A stretch of 41,954 nt of DNA from assembly GCA_017475235.1 (NCBI GenBank), contig JAFVGA010000009.1:1-41954 (forward strand), in the 5' to 3' direction. The stretch is from Eubacterium sp. Lineage in GTDB: Bacteria; Bacillota; Clostridia; Lachnospirales; Lachnospiraceae. This document shows positions 3,149-13,787 of this stretch, one piece after another (position 1 is the stretch's first letter; each line of letters opens with the position of its first letter). The translations under genes and the position numbers were made by a program. The notes beneath the pieces were generated by a model. It did not search any database and was not told where the DNA came from. It saw nothing but the letters and a program-made list of their open reading frames with translations.

Positions 3149-3703
3149 ATGAACACATTTAAGAAACTGTTTGGACATATTCATACAATTATACGCCATA
3201 GGCACAAGGTTATTCGCAATTGTGCGAGGGCTGGAATTCTTGGACAAGGCTTGAAGCATGATTTGTCGAAGTTTTCGCCCACAGAGTTTGTACCAGGCGT
3301 AAAATACTACACGGGAGATCGAAGCCCGAACGAGGGCGAGAGAAGAGACATTGGTTGCTCGAAAGCTTGGATTCATCACAAGGGAAGAAACAAGCATCAC
3401 TATGAGTACTGGCAAGACATAAATACCACAACACACGAGTACGATTTTATGCCAATGCCATATAGATATTTGGCGGAGATGTTTTGTGATAGAGTGGCGG
3501 CTAGCAAAGTCTACCGCGGCAAAGACTACAAAGACAACGACCCTCTTGTATATTTTAACGGAGGCCACGCCAAAGAAATGATGGCGCCAGAGACTGCTAG
3601 AGATTTGGAAGAGCTGTTAACGATGCTAGCAGAAAAAGGCGAGAAAGAAACATTTAAATATTTAAAAACGGAAATAAAAAGGAGAAAGAAAAATGAAAGA
3701 TGA
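3149..3703 (+). CDS. DUF5662 family protein
   Basis: A 184-residue soluble protein that I recognise as DUF5662, found in many Firmicutes and their phages. Conserved stretches include HRHKV near residue 17, QGLKHDLSKFSP (33-44), KYYTGDRSPNEGE (52-64), the His-rich WIHHKGRNKHHYEYW (74-88) and FCDRVAASK (112-120). The KHDLSK and HHKGRNKHH segments give several closely spaced His/Asp residues that could bind a metal, as in HD-type hydrolases, but no activity is established to my knowledge. It starts 8 bases after ligase 2 with a GGAAGAAA site, and its last codons overlap the HIT gene by 11 bases, so it belongs to the same operon. Confidence 0.75.
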   Translation: MNTFKKLFGHIHTIIRHRHKVIRNCARAGILGQGLKHDLSKFSPTEFVPGVKYYTGDRSPNEGERRDIGCSKAWIHHKGRNKHHYEYWQDINTTTHEYDFMPMPYRYLAEMFCDRVAASKVYRGKDYKDNDPLVYFNGGHAKEMMAPETARDLEELLTMLAEKGEKETFKYLKTEIKRRKKNER

Positions 3704-4103
3704 TTGTATTTTTTGTAAATTAGCAAACGGAGTATTTGAGACAAACACATTATATGAAGATGACCAGTTCAGAGTAATCTTCGACGCATCACCTGCCACA
3801 AAGGGACATGTTTTGGTAATCCCAAAAGAGCACTATGCAAATGTATTTGAGATTCCAGAAGATTTATTGGCAGACGGATATAAAGTTGCAAAGAAAGTTG
3901 CCACAGCTCTAAAAGAAGTAACGGGATGCGACGGGATAAACATCTTACAGAATAACGGCGAAGTAGCAGGACAGACAGTCTTCCACTTACACATCCATAT
4001 CATCCCACACTACGAAAAAGGCGAAATGATACAGTGGACTCCAGGCGAGCTGGACGAAGCAGCCGTTCAAGACATCATTGCCCGCGCAAGTGGATTAATT
4101 TGA
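3693..4103 (+). CDS. HIT family nucleotide-binding hydrolase
   Basis: A 136-residue histidine-triad protein of the HinT branch, which hydrolyses nucleoside phosphoramidates and aminoacyl-adenylates. The catalytic triad reads HLHIHIIPH (98-106), with the central His100 as nucleophile. CIFCK (5-9) gives two cysteines of the structural zinc site often present in bacterial HIT proteins. The conserved GHVLVIPKEHY (38-48) is also present. The full family length is kept. The start lies inside the preceding gene (11-base overlap) behind an AAAGGAGAAAG site. Co-transcription with two ATP-grasp ligases is suggestive, since HinT enzymes can clear adenylated by-products; that link is inference. Confidence 0.9.
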   Translation: MKDDCIFCKLANGVFETNTLYEDDQFRVIFDASPATKGHVLVIPKEHYANVFEIPEDLLADGYKVAKKVATALKEVTGCDGINILQNNGEVAGQTVFHLHIHIIPHYEKGEMIQWTPGELDEAAVQDIIARASGLI

Positions 4104-4220
4104 AATAGTAATTGATAAAAATATAAACAAAAAGAAGGTGGGGTAGAACGATTGTTAGTGAAATCCCACCTTCTTTTTGTTTATGATAATTATTTGTAAA
4201 ACTATTTCAAATTAATCCAC
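4090..4220. repeat. 20-bp inverted repeat in gene tails around copy A
   Basis: Bases 4090-4109 are the exact reverse complement of 4201-4220. The left arm contains the last codons and stop of the HIT gene; the right arm contains the last codons and stop of the converging DUF6273 gene. Unpaired segments of 13 and 16 bases separate these arms from the terminator stem. Confidence 0.9.
4123..4184. terminator. Bidirectional terminator with conserved loop (copy A)
   Basis: Arms 4123-4143 and 4164-4184 form a 21-bp stem (one G.U pair at the loop end) with A- and T-runs on the two sides, between converging genes. The 20-nt loop contains AACGATTGTTAGTG at 4147-4160, exactly the same 14 bases as in the terminator at 12527-12584, although the stems differ. 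Confidence 0.9.
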
Positions 4221-5281
4221 ATACATGGTCGCATGCTGATGTACTGATCCGCAACTGGATATCCAGCTTCTTTAACTTGTCCATGAGAAACAAATTGCGC
4301 TTCTCTCTGTGTTTCGCCAGGACCTATTAACCAATAGTCCCAACTAAACTCGCCCAAGTCTTCCTCGTATTTATAGACTTGTTTGCCGTTAAGCATGAAC
4401 AATTTATCGTTAGTAGTAGCACCTTTTGTTCCAAACTTCTTGTTATCTTTAACCACAACCTTAGTTGTAAGAATCTTATCCTTCATTCCGTCTGTGAACG
4501 TATCATCCATAAAATCAGAATTCAAATAATCTCTTATTGAGCTAGTTTTCCATGTGACATTAGTGTCCTTCTCATTGTAAGGAATCTCATCCACTGGCTT
4601 AACCTTAATGAGGAATGCTTTGTTGCCATATTTTTCGGCCACAACCCAGTGGGCTTCGCCAAATAACACATCGCCATGTTTTTTAGTCTTCTTTAAAATT
4701 TGGATTTCTGCTTTAGCTAGCTTTTCGCCGCTGTCTTTGTAGTCACGAATATCTCTAAACGCTTTCTTCGCAGCTTCAAAATCTTTTTCTTTAAGCTTTT
4801 CGCAAGCATGCTTGTATCTGTTATCTAAGTATCTCTTCTCACTATCCTTGTAATCCTTTAAATGAAGAAACATCTTGTAAGCTTTCTCGTGGTTTCCAAT
4901 GCTCTCGTAGAAAGTTGACCTTAGGTATGCGCCGTGATCAAACATTCTAGTATAGAAGAAACCTAAAATACCAATAATAACTAAAACGGCAACAACTCTT
5001 ATAATCCATACAGATGCCTTGCCTGATTTCTTTGAATCCAAAGGATTCTTTGGAGCAGGCGGAAGGTTGTCCTCCATCTTAGAATACTTCTCAGCTTCTT
5101 CCTTACATTTAGTCGCCATAGCAGAAGAGTCGGAGAAATCTCCCAACGCTTCAAATCTTTTGGCTGCTCTCTTAAGAGTTTTTGCCTTGTCAGAATTCTT
5201 CTTTAAACAATCTAGAGAATTCACCAAGACTTTCGCCTTATCATATTGTTGCTGTAATTCAGTTTCGTTTAATTCAGCCAT
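4202..5281 (-). CDS. DUF6273-type membrane protein with helical repeats
   Basis: A 359-residue protein with a cytoplasmic N-terminus, one transmembrane helix (about 91-110) and a large outer domain. Short helical repeats with a D(F/Y)xDS core occur before and after the helix: near 48-53, 142-147 and 179-184 (GDFSDS, KDYKDS, RDYKDS), the style of Sel1/TPR-like repeats seen in Clostridia proteins. Residues from about 205 carry the W-K-T-S-x-I-R-x-(Y/W)-L-N pattern of DUF6273, a domain of unknown role that resembles lectin/FGE-type folds. The start has a GGGAGGATG site and lies 15 bases after murG, in the LCP-murG operon. A cell-envelope role is inferred from that position. Confidence 0.7.
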   Translation of the reverse strand: MAELNETELQQQYDKAKVLVNSLDCLKKNSDKAKTLKRAAKRFEALGDFSDSSAMATKCKEEAEKYSKMEDNLPPAPKNPLDSKKSGKASVWIIRVVAVLVIIGILGFFYTRMFDHGAYLRSTFYESIGNHEKAYKMFLHLKDYKDSEKRYLDNRYKHACEKLKEKDFEAAKKAFRDIRDYKDSGEKLAKAEIQILKKTKKHGDVLFGEAHWVVAEKYGNKAFLIKVKPVDEIPYNEKDTNVTWKTSSIRDYLNSDFMDDTFTDGMKDKILTTKVVVKDNKKFGTKGATTNDKLFMLNGKQVYKYEEDLGEFSWDYWLIGPGETQREAQFVSHGQVKEAGYPVADQYISMRPCMWINLK

Positions 5282-10179: not shown

Positions 10180-11322
10180 ATGGACAAGGCGGAAATGAAA
10201 AAATCGATGTTGAAGATTGCGTTCAAGCCACTTACTCTTCTCAATATGATAAAGAAGAAAGACAAGAGGCTTATTTTCTTTTACTCAAATCTTGGGTTCA
10301 GAGACAATGTAAAGGCATTCTACGACTATTTGATTGAGAATAATTACAATGAAAAATATTACATAGTTGTCAGCATAAATGATTTTGAAGATTATGTTCA
10401 TAAATCGCCAAAACATGTTAAGTTTGTCGACAACAAAGAAGGCATCAAGTATTTTATGAAAGCAAAGTACGCATTCTACTGCTTTGGAAAATACCCAATC
10501 AAGCCAGCTAAGAGCCAGATGGTTGTTAACCTTTGGCACGGAACACCTCTAAAGAAAATTGGAAATTTAGAAGAGGGAAAAGAGCAGATTGATTACAACT
10601 TCTTCACAAAGGTTGTGGCTTCATCGCCAATGTACCAACCAATTATGGCGGATATATTCGGCTGCAGCGAAGAAGATGTGGACGTTTTAGGAAACCCAAG
10701 AAACGACGAGATGTTTAAAGTAAATCAAATCTTAGATACAGCAATCCTTCGCGGCGCTAGACGCCTTATCGTTTGGCTTCCAACATATCGCGAGTACAAG
10801 GACGATATGCTCGTGCCACTTCTAAGTAGAAGTGATCTCGAGGACTTGAACAAGTTCTTAAAAATGAAAAACTGGAGAATGATTATCAAACTTCATCCAC
10901 TTCAAGAGGCAAGCCTCAATGAGATGAAGTATTCCCATATAGACATTTACAACGAAAAGCAACTTCGCGAAAATGACATGAGCGTCTACACAATTCTAAG
11001 AAACGCAGATGCGCTCATTACCGACTATTCATCGGTATTCTTCGACTACTTGATGCTCGATCGCCCAATCGCTTTCGTGACCGAGGACTTCGACGAATAC
11101 AAGAAGAAAAGAGGTTTCATTTTCGACAAGCCAGAGGACTTTATGCCAGGGCCAAGACTTAAGGACCTAGATCAGATGAAAAATTTCCTTAGCTCGGTGG
11201 ACTATGGAATCGATACTTACAGAGACGACCGCCACGAAGTAAACGCGATGGTGAACACATACAACGATGGAAGAAGTGCGATGAGAATCGCCGCAAACTA
11301 TTTGGATAATGAAGATAATTAA
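10180..11322 (+). CDS. CDP-glycerol:glycerophosphotransferase 1
   Basis: A 380-residue member of the TagB/TagF family (Glyphos_transf), which transfers glycerol phosphate from CDP-glycerol to a lipid-linked acceptor. Key motifs: LWHGTPLKKIG (118-128) with the conserved His, LGNPRNDEMF near 170, WLPTYREYKDD near 205, KLHPLQ in the middle, and ITDYSSVFFDY (about 278-288). It lacks an extra glycosyltransferase domain. Only two bases separate it from the GT2 gene and its end overlaps the next paralogue by 14 bases. It could be the primase (TagB role), adding the first glycerol phosphate, or a polymerase; sequence alone does not decide. Confidence 0.88.
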   Translation: MDKAEMKKSMLKIAFKPLTLLNMIKKKDKRLIFFYSNLGFRDNVKAFYDYLIENNYNEKYYIVVSINDFEDYVHKSPKHVKFVDNKEGIKYFMKAKYAFYCFGKYPIKPAKSQMVVNLWHGTPLKKIGNLEEGKEQIDYNFFTKVVASSPMYQPIMADIFGCSEEDVDVLGNPRNDEMFKVNQILDTAILRGARRLIVWLPTYREYKDDMLVPLLSRSDLEDLNKFLKMKNWRMIIKLHPLQEASLNEMKYSHIDIYNEKQLRENDMSVYTILRNADALITDYSSVFFDYLMLDRPIAFVTEDFDEYKKKRGFIFDKPEDFMPGPRLKDLDQMKNFLSSVDYGIDTYRDDRHEVNAMVNTYNDGRSAMRIAANYLDNEDN

Positions 11323-12508
11323 AGATATATTGAGAGCACTAATGCTCGTGTACAAAAGAATACTTTACAAGATTGCCTGTGCCAGAACAAAAGTGGATGA
11401 CAAGACAATCTTTTTCGAGAGCTTCCAAGGAAGAAGTTTTAGTTGTAGTCCAAAAGCCATCTTCGAAGAAATGAGAGACTCAGGTGAATACGCAGACTAC
11501 GAGTTTGTATGGGGCTTGAGAGATGCCAAAGTGCATAACTTCAGAAAGATTATGAAGAAGTTGAGTGCCCCAGATGGTTCTACGGGCGGAGCAACTATCA
11601 CGATTCACAAATATGAGACTTATCGTTACTACAAGACTCTTGCAAAGGCTAAGTATTGGATTATGAATTCAAATGTTCGTCCGTTCCTCAAGCCAAGAAA
11701 AAATCAAGTATATATTCAGACATGGCACGGAACTCCTTTGAAGAGAATAGGATTGGATGTGCCAGGAAGCGACCTGGACTACGCCAAAGAGGGAAAGAAA
11801 TTCTCATATATGATTTCGCCTTCAAAGTATTGTACTGATAAATATATTTCTGCATTTGGATTGCAGGGTAGAGAAGATATTATTTTAGAAACTGGCTATC
11901 CTAGAAACGATGCGTTGTTTACTTTTGATCAGGCAAAGGTAAATTCTATTTTAAGAGAACTTGATGTTCCAAGAGGAAAGAAAATAATTTTATACGCACC
12001 AACGTTCAGAGATAATAAGCACTCACAAGTTAGTGGATATGAGAATGCATCGGGAATAGACTTTGACAAACTAAGAGAACAACTTGGAAATGAATATATA
12101 ATCCTATTTAGAGCACACTACTTTGTTGCTAAGAATATGGATTTCGCAAAATACAAAGACTTTATTATAGATGTTTCAGATTACGAAGACGTGAACGATT
12201 TGTATATCATAAGCGATATGCTTATCACAGATTATTCATCAGTATTTTTCGACTATGCAAACCTCAAACGCCCAATCATCTTCTATATGTATGATTACGA
12301 GGACTACAAAGAAAATGCTAGAGACTTCTATTTAGATGAGACTGAGCTCCCAGGACCAATAACAAAGACACAAAAAGAACTAGTTCAGGAAATAAACAAC
12401 ACGCTTTACTTTATACCAGGCGCAAGATATTCAATGTTCAATCAAAAATTTAATCATCTCGACGGAATCAATTGCGGACTTAATGTTGCTAGAAAGATAA
12501 TTAAATAA
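11309..12508 (+). CDS. CDP-glycerol:glycerophosphotransferase 2
   Basis: A 399-residue TagB/TagF-family enzyme. Motifs: FFESFQGRSFSCSPKAIF (35-52), the family opening, TWHGTPLKRIGLD (138-150), TGYPRNDALF near 196, LYAPTFRDN near 225, LFRAHYF near 268 and ITDYSSVFFDYANL (about 308-321). The basic, amphipathic N-terminus (residues 1-25) could attach it to the membrane, as in TagF. It overlaps the previous gene by 14 bases with no strong ribosome binding site, so translation is probably coupled. Closer in sequence to the minus-strand paralogue and the fusion proteins than to paralogue 1, judging by the shared FESF and YAPT motifs. Confidence 0.88.
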   Translation: MKIIKDILRALMLVYKRILYKIACARTKVDDKTIFFESFQGRSFSCSPKAIFEEMRDSGEYADYEFVWGLRDAKVHNFRKIMKKLSAPDGSTGGATITIHKYETYRYYKTLAKAKYWIMNSNVRPFLKPRKNQVYIQTWHGTPLKRIGLDVPGSDLDYAKEGKKFSYMISPSKYCTDKYISAFGLQGREDIILETGYPRNDALFTFDQAKVNSILRELDVPRGKKIILYAPTFRDNKHSQVSGYENASGIDFDKLREQLGNEYIILFRAHYFVAKNMDFAKYKDFIIDVSDYEDVNDLYIISDMLITDYSSVFFDYANLKRPIIFYMYDYEDYKENARDFYLDETELPGPITKTQKELVQEINNTLYFIPGARYSMFNQKFNHLDGINCGLNVARKIIK

Positions 12509-12614
12509 TATAGATAAATATTTAAACAGAGAAAAAGAGGTGGGGTCAAACGATTGTTAGTGCGACCTCACCTCTTTTTCTCTGCCTAAAAATCTATTCT
12601 TCTATATTATCTAA
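12501..12614. repeat. Imperfect inverted repeat in gene tails around copy B
   Basis: Bases 12501-12520 match the reverse complement of 12595-12614 at 17 of 20 positions, with a 10-base exact core. The left arm includes the final codons and stop of the plus-strand gene; the right arm includes the final codons of the minus-strand gene. The layout matches the 20-bp arms around copy A. Confidence 0.7.
12527..12584. terminator. Bidirectional terminator with conserved loop (copy B)
   Basis: Arms 12527-12547 and 12564-12584 form a 21-bp stem with one G.U pair, flanked by A- and T-runs, between converging glycerophosphotransferase genes. The 16-nt loop carries AACGATTGTTAGTG at 12549-12562, identical to copy A at 4147-4160. 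Confidence 0.9.
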
Positions 12615-13787
12615 ATAACTTTGCTCTGTAATCAAGTCCACAATTGCTTTTGATGCTGTTCCTTCGTCACAGTGATTATATTTTTTGTGGAAAGCATCAT
12701 ATTTTTCTTCCCAGTCTTCTTTGTTGTAGTTCTTGATTGATTCAATTAATTCATCATTGTCATAAACTAGTGGGCCGGGAGCTTCTTCTTTGAAGTCGAA
12801 GTAGAAGCCACGAAGGTCATTCATGTATTCGTCGTAGTCGTAAGTGAAGAATACGATTGGACGATTCAAAACGCTGTAGTCAAACATTACCGAAGAGTAG
12901 TCCGTGATCAACATGTCTGAAACCAAGTAAAGATCGGCAATATCGCAGCCCTCGTCAAACTGATAAACAAATCCCTCGTACTTGCTCCAGTCCACAGAAT
13001 CTTTTATTAAGTAGTGATACTTAACAATCATCACGTACTCATCTGACAACTCATCGCGCAATGCGTCGAAGTCCATTTGGTTTGCAAATTTGTATTTGCC
13101 CAAGTCGTAATATTGATTATCTCTCCATGTTGGAGCGTACAAAATTACTTTTTTATTAAGTGGAAGACCCAGTTTACGTTTCAACTCAAAAATCTGACTA
13201 GCAGTTGTGTTCAAAAGCTTGTCGTTTCTTGGGTATCCAACTTCCAAAATTGTTTTATCAAAATCAAAGCACTGTCTGAAAATCTTTGTCGAGTACGAGT
13301 TCTGAGATAATAGATAATCCCACGCTGCAATACTCTTTCTGAAGTGCTTGTGATATCTATCTACATTAGTGTTTCCTGCCATATCGATTGCTTCCATATC
13401 TAGCGCAAGCTTCTTCAAAGGAGTTCCATGCCAAGTTTGGATGTACTGACCTTTTCTGTTCTTGTGAAGATATCGCGGAAGTCTAGAATCAGACACGATA
13501 AAAGCAGCAGAAGAATAAACCTTAAAGAAAGGCATAGTTTTGTAAGTGATTGTCTTGAATTTACCAGGAATCATGCTAAGATCCACATCTTTTACGTTTT
13601 TGAAGGCCCAATAAACGTCAAACTTCTCATCAAGCCCCTGTTTTACGAATTCTTCGTAGATGTAGCGAGGGTTTCCTGTGTAATTTCTAAACATACTACT
13701 CTCAAAGACTATTACGTTCTCTTTAAACTTAATAGTCATTGCGAATAACTTATAAAAATTTGTCAAAAACTGCTTAATATACTTCAT
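12594..13787 (-). CDS. CDP-glycerol:glycerophosphotransferase 3 (inverted)
   Basis: A 397-residue TagB/TagF-family enzyme encoded against the direction of the cluster. Motifs: VFESSMFRNYTGNPRYIY (27-44), TWHGTPLKKLALD (118-130), VGYPRNDKLL near 187, LYAPTWRDN near 215, KYHYL near 260 and ITDYSSVMFDYSVLNRP near 298. The N-terminal 24 residues are basic and hydrophobic, a likely membrane anchor. The nearest GGAGG lies 14 bases from the ATG, a rather long gap. It converges on paralogue 2 and diverges from tagD, so it has its own promoter; a TAAAAT-like -10 lies near 13830 on the minus strand. Independent expression may let the cell alter polymer length or branching (inference). Confidence 0.88.
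   Translation of the reverse strand: MKYIKQFLTNFYKLFAMTIKFKENVIVFESSMFRNYTGNPRYIYEEFVKQGLDEKFDVYWAFKNVKDVDLSMIPGKFKTITYKTMPFFKVYSSAAFIVSDSRLPRYLHKNRKGQYIQTWHGTPLKKLALDMEAIDMAGNTNVDRYHKHFRKSIAAWDYLLSQNSYSTKIFRQCFDFDKTILEVGYPRNDKLLNTTASQIFELKRKLGLPLNKKVILYAPTWRDNQYYDLGKYKFANQMDFDALRDELSDEYVMIVKYHYLIKDSVDWSKYEGFVYQFDEGCDIADLYLVSDMLITDYSSVMFDYSVLNRPIVFFTYDYDEYMNDLRGFYFDFKEEAPGPLVYDNDELIESIKNYNKEDWEEKYDAFHKKYNHCDEGTASKAIVDLITEQSYLDNIEE

Follow-up and report, generated by a model that had tools for sequence, protein, structure and literature searches.

A dispersed hairpin family with a conserved folded tip in one group of Lachnospira genomes

Several described systems resemble the hairpins reported here. 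Intrinsic bidirectional terminators stand at the ends of genes and have a long stem, one arm with an A-run and the other with a T-run, and stable hairpin caps are favoured in terminators. The small dispersed repeats (SDR) of cyanobacteria are very small repeats with compensatory changes. REP and REPIN sequences, associated with RAYT transposases, are described in PMC3116915 as dispersed extragenic imperfect palindromes in many copies. Template-switch mutations are relevant too. A yeast study describes template switching between inverted-repeat arms that homogenises the arms and inverts the spacers (PMC8604942), and another study describes loop inversions in bacterial rRNA, Firmicutes among them, that fit template switching (PMC8794818).

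The present family shares the long stem and the A-run/T-run arms of bidirectional terminators, with 61 of 140 copies between convergent genes, but differs in having a conserved folded tip, a rule for 5' bulges, tip inversion, copies between divergent genes and outer inverted repeats. By general description it is also like the cyanobacterial SDR, in its very small size and compensatory changes. Like REP and REPIN it is dispersed, extragenic and palindromic, whereas its stem varies in concert, its tip is conserved and its carriers yielded no Y1 transposase. With template-switch mutations, as presented in PMC8794818 and PMC8604942, it shares arm homogenisation and spacer inversion; unlike them, the events here centre on a single conserved tip, recur at many sites and extend into neighbouring genes.

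The window, by which we mean the whole 41,954-nucleotide stretch of DNA analysed, carries two of these hairpins:

4122..4185 (+), hairpin 1: inner stem 4122-4144 / 4163-4185 with the tip between; MFE -34.1 kcal/mol, z -8.85
4146..4161 (+), folded tip of hairpin 1: starts with a G.A mismatch, followed by AACGATTGTTAGTG, inside which AC pairs with GT
4090..4109 (+), left outer arm of hairpin 1: GTGGATTAATTTGAAATAGT; overlaps the HIT gene at its end
4201..4220 (-), right outer arm of hairpin 1: repeats 4090-4109 exactly in inverted orientation; overlaps the DUF6273 gene at its end, where it is read in another frame
3693..4103 (+), HIT-domain gene, convergent left neighbour of hairpin 1
4202..5281 (-), DUF6273 gene, convergent right neighbour of hairpin 1
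12527..12584 (+), hairpin 2: inner stem 12527-12547 / 12564-12584; MFE -39.8 kcal/mol, z -9.43
12548..12563 (+), folded tip of hairpin 2: an A.C mismatch, then AACGATTGTTAGTG; stem without a bulge
11309..12508 (+), Glyphos_transf gene, convergent left neighbour of hairpin 2
12594..13787 (-), Glyphos_transf gene, convergent right neighbour of hairpin 2 and a member of the same Pfam family as its left counterpart

A sequence-only reading of this DNA had pointed out both hairpins, their converging neighbours and an identical 14-nucleotide loop preceded by the same letters. Sequence and folding bear all of this out: AACGATTGTTAGTG is exact at 4147-4160 and at 12549-12562, AGGTGGGGT lies directly 5' of it in both, and none of 200 shuffles folds as well as either hairpin when the + strand is folded as RNA. 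The stems, described there as 21 base pairs with one G.U, are so in hairpin 2, while hairpin 1 has 22 pairs with one G.U (4123-4144 with 4163-4184), to which its fold adds a terminal U4122.G4185 pair. Hairpin 1 scores 82.2 bits in covariance model R1, having been among the copies used to build it. The CDP-glycerol glycerophosphotransferase family is represented by three genes at 10180-13787 of the window, and the final two are those that converge on hairpin 2.

The window alone is weak evidence for a repeated loop, since two matches with no more than two mismatches turn up in 6 of 100 shuffled versions. The genome it comes from (G000; 1.45 Mb, 76% complete) holds 16 exact copies, all of them tips of long hairpins, and no exact match to the reversed control pattern, which rules out a chance origin; at up to two mismatches the counts are 40 against 16. 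Only two copies genome-wide would have spoken against the earlier reading, and that outcome did not occur. The shared loop is confirmed, and the phenomenon is larger than the two window sites show.

Carriers of the loop are confined to one group. Eight of 60 genomes searched, the window genome included, contain the exact loop; all belong to one genus and are 59-96% complete. Model R1, built from 12 copies, gave 24-54 matches per genome at E<=0.01 in these eight carriers, against 0-2 in the remaining 15 of the 23 genus genomes, with 150 candidates scored per genome and both strands of one hairpin able to count. Among 299 genomes of the family, with 17 candidates scored in each, a second model matched only the window genome at E<=1e-7. 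An rpoB tree places five carriers on one side of a fully supported branch; it leaves out G000, G011 and G018, which had no rpoB match. Records with the extended tip are metagenome-assembled genomes labelled Lachnospira, Eubacterium or Lachnospiraceae, with sheep, yak and reindeer among the sources given, and the genus name Lachnospira used here follows those labels.

Beyond these genomes the tip is rare. An 18-mer found 68 stretches in GTDB contigs, eight of them outside the carriers, and one of these eight, from Eubacterium ramulus, lies in a hairpin; its stem is unrelated, with a 17-bp run, and shows the same bulge, C-G and G.A arrangement. A 16-mer had no match in 19 other genomes of that species' genus, and its two single matches in 397 family genomes both lie away from a hairpin tip (one, L370, off-centre within a stem). 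A phage origin was considered and rejected. The 18-mer had no match in viral contigs, and the 16-mer gave 62 viral-contig stretches, in which 61 tips had flank enough to be scored; among the best ten of the 61, 13 of 16 arm positions are paired in L366 and at most 10 in the rest, none of them looking like a family hairpin by eye. The hairpins are a clade-specific dispersed family of one related Lachnospira group, plus one E. ramulus copy.

The collection took in hairpins whose stem has 12 or more pairs and whose long loop contains the intact motif; it comprises 140 distinct copies from eight related genomes. They occupy 60 sites matched on both flanks, 35 of them present in two or more genomes (48 and 37 under looser linking, which in G000, G011 and G018 fused two adjoining hairpins as a single site). 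Eight further copies, about 5% of 148, are degenerate (score >=11; lower scores were judged unrelated by eye).

The tip keeps its ends and changes its middle. Its ends, AACGA and AGTG, are nearly fixed across the 140 copies, and the middle varies in length (TTGTT in 71 copies, TTTTA in 45, CTTTTCT in 7, TTTTT in 6, TTCA in 4, others in 7). The inner pair is A-T in 135 copies, G-C in three, A-C in one and G-T in one. Just outside the A.G mismatch stands G.A (111 copies), A.C (27) or A.A (2), never a Watson-Crick pair, and the pair next to this position is C-G in 109 copies and T-A in 25. Because length varies only in the middle, the inner pair swaps between A-T and G-C and the mismatch persists, the conserved part is a folded motif with mismatches, and the tip appears to be read folded. 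Its predicted form is 5'-(C) G.A A.G A-T C-G G.A around a short T-rich loop, with A.C replacing the first G.A in about a fifth of tips. The interpretation offered earlier stands in part: the loop is conserved beyond chance or recent duplication, the stems covary and the copies make up a dispersed family, but AC pairs with GT inside the 14 nucleotides, and the conserved unit is folded.

The state of the tip is coupled to the 5' arm, where the bulge is usually a single unpaired base at a varying distance below the tip. Copies with G.A on C-G have it in 88 of 89 cases (two of them with two bases), those with G.A on T-A in 9 of 17, and those with A.C in none of 27. A balance of stability as the cause of this rule is unsupported, median tip energies being -9.8 for G.A/C-G against -13.5 for A.C/C-G. 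The tip might be a fast-folding, stable cap that improves termination and has no partner. Such caps are indeed favoured in terminators, but we regard this as very unlikely here: a long, mismatch-rich tip is no obvious optimum, loops of 3-5 nucleotides, with many sequences, are the form in 91 of the 140 other strong hairpins between genes in the G000 and G020 stretches, and the tip is conserved even between divergent genes, where there is no upstream transcript to be ended.

Stems differ between copies with both arms altered together, as had been noticed in the window pair. In an alignment of 121 matches (95 sources used, the copies lying in 114 loci, one match being the reverse strand of another), 98.0% of cells are paired against 52.5-54.9% in slid alignments, counts that lean towards structure because the alignment was fitted to the model; an ungapped set of 12 copies is 96.2% paired. 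Both sides are altered in 728 cells, against 180 +/- 12 in shuffles, and 21 of 22 stem pairs show changes on both sides. Between sites the stems share a loose consensus. Covariation alone would have passed as proof of RNA function.

Comparison of orthologous sites separates tip from stem. Across 160 pairs with both flanks matched, identity is 0.994 at the core nine positions, an upper bound since an intact core belongs to the copy selection rule, and 0.613 in the upper stem, with the whole middle identical in 0.569. A looser set of 192 pairs gives 0.992, 0.589 and 0.552, respectively, and four-fold sites of its flanking genes are 0.713 identical (of 39,774). Concerted copying would level the middle too, so selection on the core is the favoured reading, and the comparison suggests strong purifying selection on the tip by some function. 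That the tips merely share a recent common origin, with too little time to diverge, is extremely improbable: the five carriers in the tree are close by rpoB (protein identity at least 0.982), but in the same 192 pairs four-fold sites differ by 29% and upper stems by 41%. This divergence at orthologous sites also rules out recent duplication including the stem, which the sequence-only reading had named as its other possible refutation.

A mobile palindromic element without host function, whose tip is the site of a mobilising enzyme that spreads the copies, would account for a dispersed and clade-restricted distribution, the loose stem consensus, the few discrete tip variants and the single E. 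ramulus copy. It would also fit presence and absence at orthologous sites; the aroE 3' end, for example, carries a plain terminator-like hairpin in G001 and G011 and a family hairpin in G000, G003, G018, G020 and G021. Decay would be expected after insertion, however, and orthologous tips are 99% identical against 71% for four-fold sites. Candidate movers are scarce as well, with the Y1 transposase (PF01797) in none of the eight carriers, 59-96% complete as they are (6 of 23 genus genomes have it at E<=0.001), and reverse transcriptase in one of eight; both were rejected. We consider such an element unlikely. Tyrosine recombinases occur in 23 of 23 genus genomes and are uninformative. A 308-aa ORF beside several copies was rejected as an element gene, its translation, recognised by eye, reading as what we take to be shikimate dehydrogenase (aroE). 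The earlier reading had posed binding and the spread of a palindromic element as a choice; the two are not alternative explanations, because a dispersed family is found together with tip conservation that points to purifying selection.

Tip direction is unbiased with respect to genes and replication, which argues against a role only in sense mRNA. Relative to the tip, flanking genes are arranged +- in 61 copies, ++ in 36, -- in 21, -+ in 12 and unknown in 10; the 28 codirectional sites divide into 13 ++, 10 -- and 5 with both. For replication, 26 of 49 hairpins in the stretches are leading and 23 lagging. An RNA element, in which a hairpin at the mRNA 3' end is bound through its folded tip by an RNA-binding protein or small RNA and affects stability or termination, gains from the 61 convergent copies, where one transcript always carries the forward tip, and from the 36 at ++. 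It gains too from wobbles on the loop-forward strand, where G.T exceeds A.C by 33 to 8 distinct contexts, with about half of the excess at ++ sites (16:2); at -- sites, two G.T and one A.C are too few to tell. We nevertheless find it rather unlikely. Ten of the codirectional sites present only the reverse tip in the transcript of the upstream gene, five carry both directions across genomes, five sites have a divergent copy, and inversions persist between genomes. None of the eight degenerate copies is in a -- or -+ context (five are +-, two ++, one unknown), a further point against it. Because the tip flips between genomes and shows no clear transcription or replication bias, binding on one given transcript is unlikely. 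At L183 3955-4073 and L160 ~13552, family hairpins of a cluster in seven genomes lie upstream of both members of a divergent pair of aroDK-like and aroE-like genes (named by eye), a position in which there would be no upstream transcript to end.

Inversion of the tip is frequent. It is seen between genomes at 18 of 35 shared sites and in 58 of 160 pairs with both flanks matched (20 of 37 sites under looser clustering). In pairs with matched stems, 25 of 76 family pairs are inverted. Other hairpins, in 57 pairs from any context with family B (described below) included, give 18 same, 3 palindromic, 36 changed and none exactly inverted, a contrast partly confounded by their mostly shorter stems and loops; three of the 36 changed pairs, all of family B, look inverted by eye. 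Breakpoints vary. Between G020 L075 and G003 L223 only the inside is turned, the left flanks matching exactly as far as the stem, whereas between G000 L187 and G020 L104 the inner flanks are turned too, placing one breakpoint in the inner stem and the other in the outer arms. A site-specific invertible element was discarded, since breakpoints differ in these two clear pairs and arms are locus-specific.

Outer inverted repeats accompany the family. They flank 29 of 47 family hairpins against 5 of 98 plain ones (up to 140 nucleotides beyond the stem, score >=28, G000 and G020 stretches, pairs of similar-protein genes left out; Fisher p = 2e-13, with some G000 and G020 sites orthologous and copies not all independent), and 200 nucleotides further out they flank 0 of 47. 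The excess is present in each context (convergent 16/22 vs 2/27, codirectional 9/21 vs 3/69, divergent 4/4 vs 0/2) and at equal stem length (17-19 pairs 8/14 vs 0/14; at least 20 pairs 18/29 vs 2/9). The repeats reach towards or into neighbouring genes. The arms at hairpin 1 are 20 identical bases, which the two genes translate as SGLI-stop and WINLK-stop; being read in different frames, their likeness lies in the DNA and not in the protein. Two genes of different families thus share copied DNA at their ends. In G020 both sides of this site differ from G000 yet resemble each other. An outer repeat at hairpin 2 was dropped, its two genes belonging to one family. Four plain 14-pair hairpins (L167 16750, L178 8671, L181 1108, L193 6259), three with the loop ATCAA, sit inside inverted repeats of ~100 nucleotides per side with outer scores of 92-105; they occur in both G000 and G020 and are perhaps a separate small element.

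We read tip inversion and outer repeats as probable signatures of template switching during replication. Switching between the arms, as the comparison of genomes supports, would keep them complementary and turn the tip round, and the same process would copy stretches of DNA, sometimes a gene end, from one side to the other. Each hairpin is predicted most likely to end transcription from both sides. The stem is stable, most sites are at gene ends and a T-run lies within the 3' arm. Our terminator scanner takes loops of 3-8 nucleotides only, and the family falls outside its listing. The tip would most likely be where a putative factor, the reader, recognises the folded hairpin. Because conservation of the tip holds whichever way it points with respect to genes and replication, this reader would in our view act on DNA, single-stranded or extruded as a hairpin, and not on one sense transcript.

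To this explanation as a whole, a terminator-like family with template-switched arms and a selected tip read by a putative factor, we would commit about half of our confidence. The reader is hypothetical, direction indifference is also expected with frequent flips and weak selection, the 99.4% tip identity rests on copies chosen for an intact tip, and template switching accounts for inversion without needing the tip. The G.T excess, moreover, would be expected from selection on RNA pairing and speaks against a reading on DNA. The explanation separates stem complementarity, which comes with arm copying and tip inversion by template switching, from what is selected, the folded tip with its fixed mismatches. 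A bolder version, quite unlikely in our estimate, is that the tip triggers template switching by drawing a factor of replication or DNA processing to the folded hairpin, which would make the hairpins self-maintaining palindromes that edit convergent gene ends. Arms would then be re-perfected, the tip flipped and an inverted copy of one gene's end written into its neighbour. Dozens of natural sites in eight genomes open the process to tests in simple laboratory constructs, and the putative reader should be traceable from the tip.

The earlier remark that no named family has this loop agrees with Rfam release 15, which gave no match in the window. Three further loci searched at E<=5 gave five matches, all below the gathering score (E 0.03-4.4), three of them overlapping hairpins (rli51, 28.1 bits vs 48; Atu_C9, 20.4 vs 40; snoR135, 18 vs 45). 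Open-licence literature yielded no matching family of conserved-loop terminators, terminator-bearing palindromic elements, Lachnospiraceae palindromes or conserved-loop bidirectional terminators.

Other conserved-tip hairpins occur in the same genomes. Family B has the tip AAAT-TTCTGTY-ATTT, with an inner stem, on differing stems, and some pairs look inverted between genomes. It lies at L175 11535-11598, 15259-15324 and 15338-15408, L162 801-941, L164 19075-19140, L195 and L205. Of 60 genomes, 11 contain the 15-mer of family B, and the main family is absent from five of these 11 (for these five, 15-mer matches only). A third type has an inner GAAAG/CTTTC stem within different outer stems and appears in opposite directions in the fetched loci (L124 5741-5802, L168 12939-13001, L117 6872-6935). 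It occupies one site, matched on one flank, where G000 has the main family.
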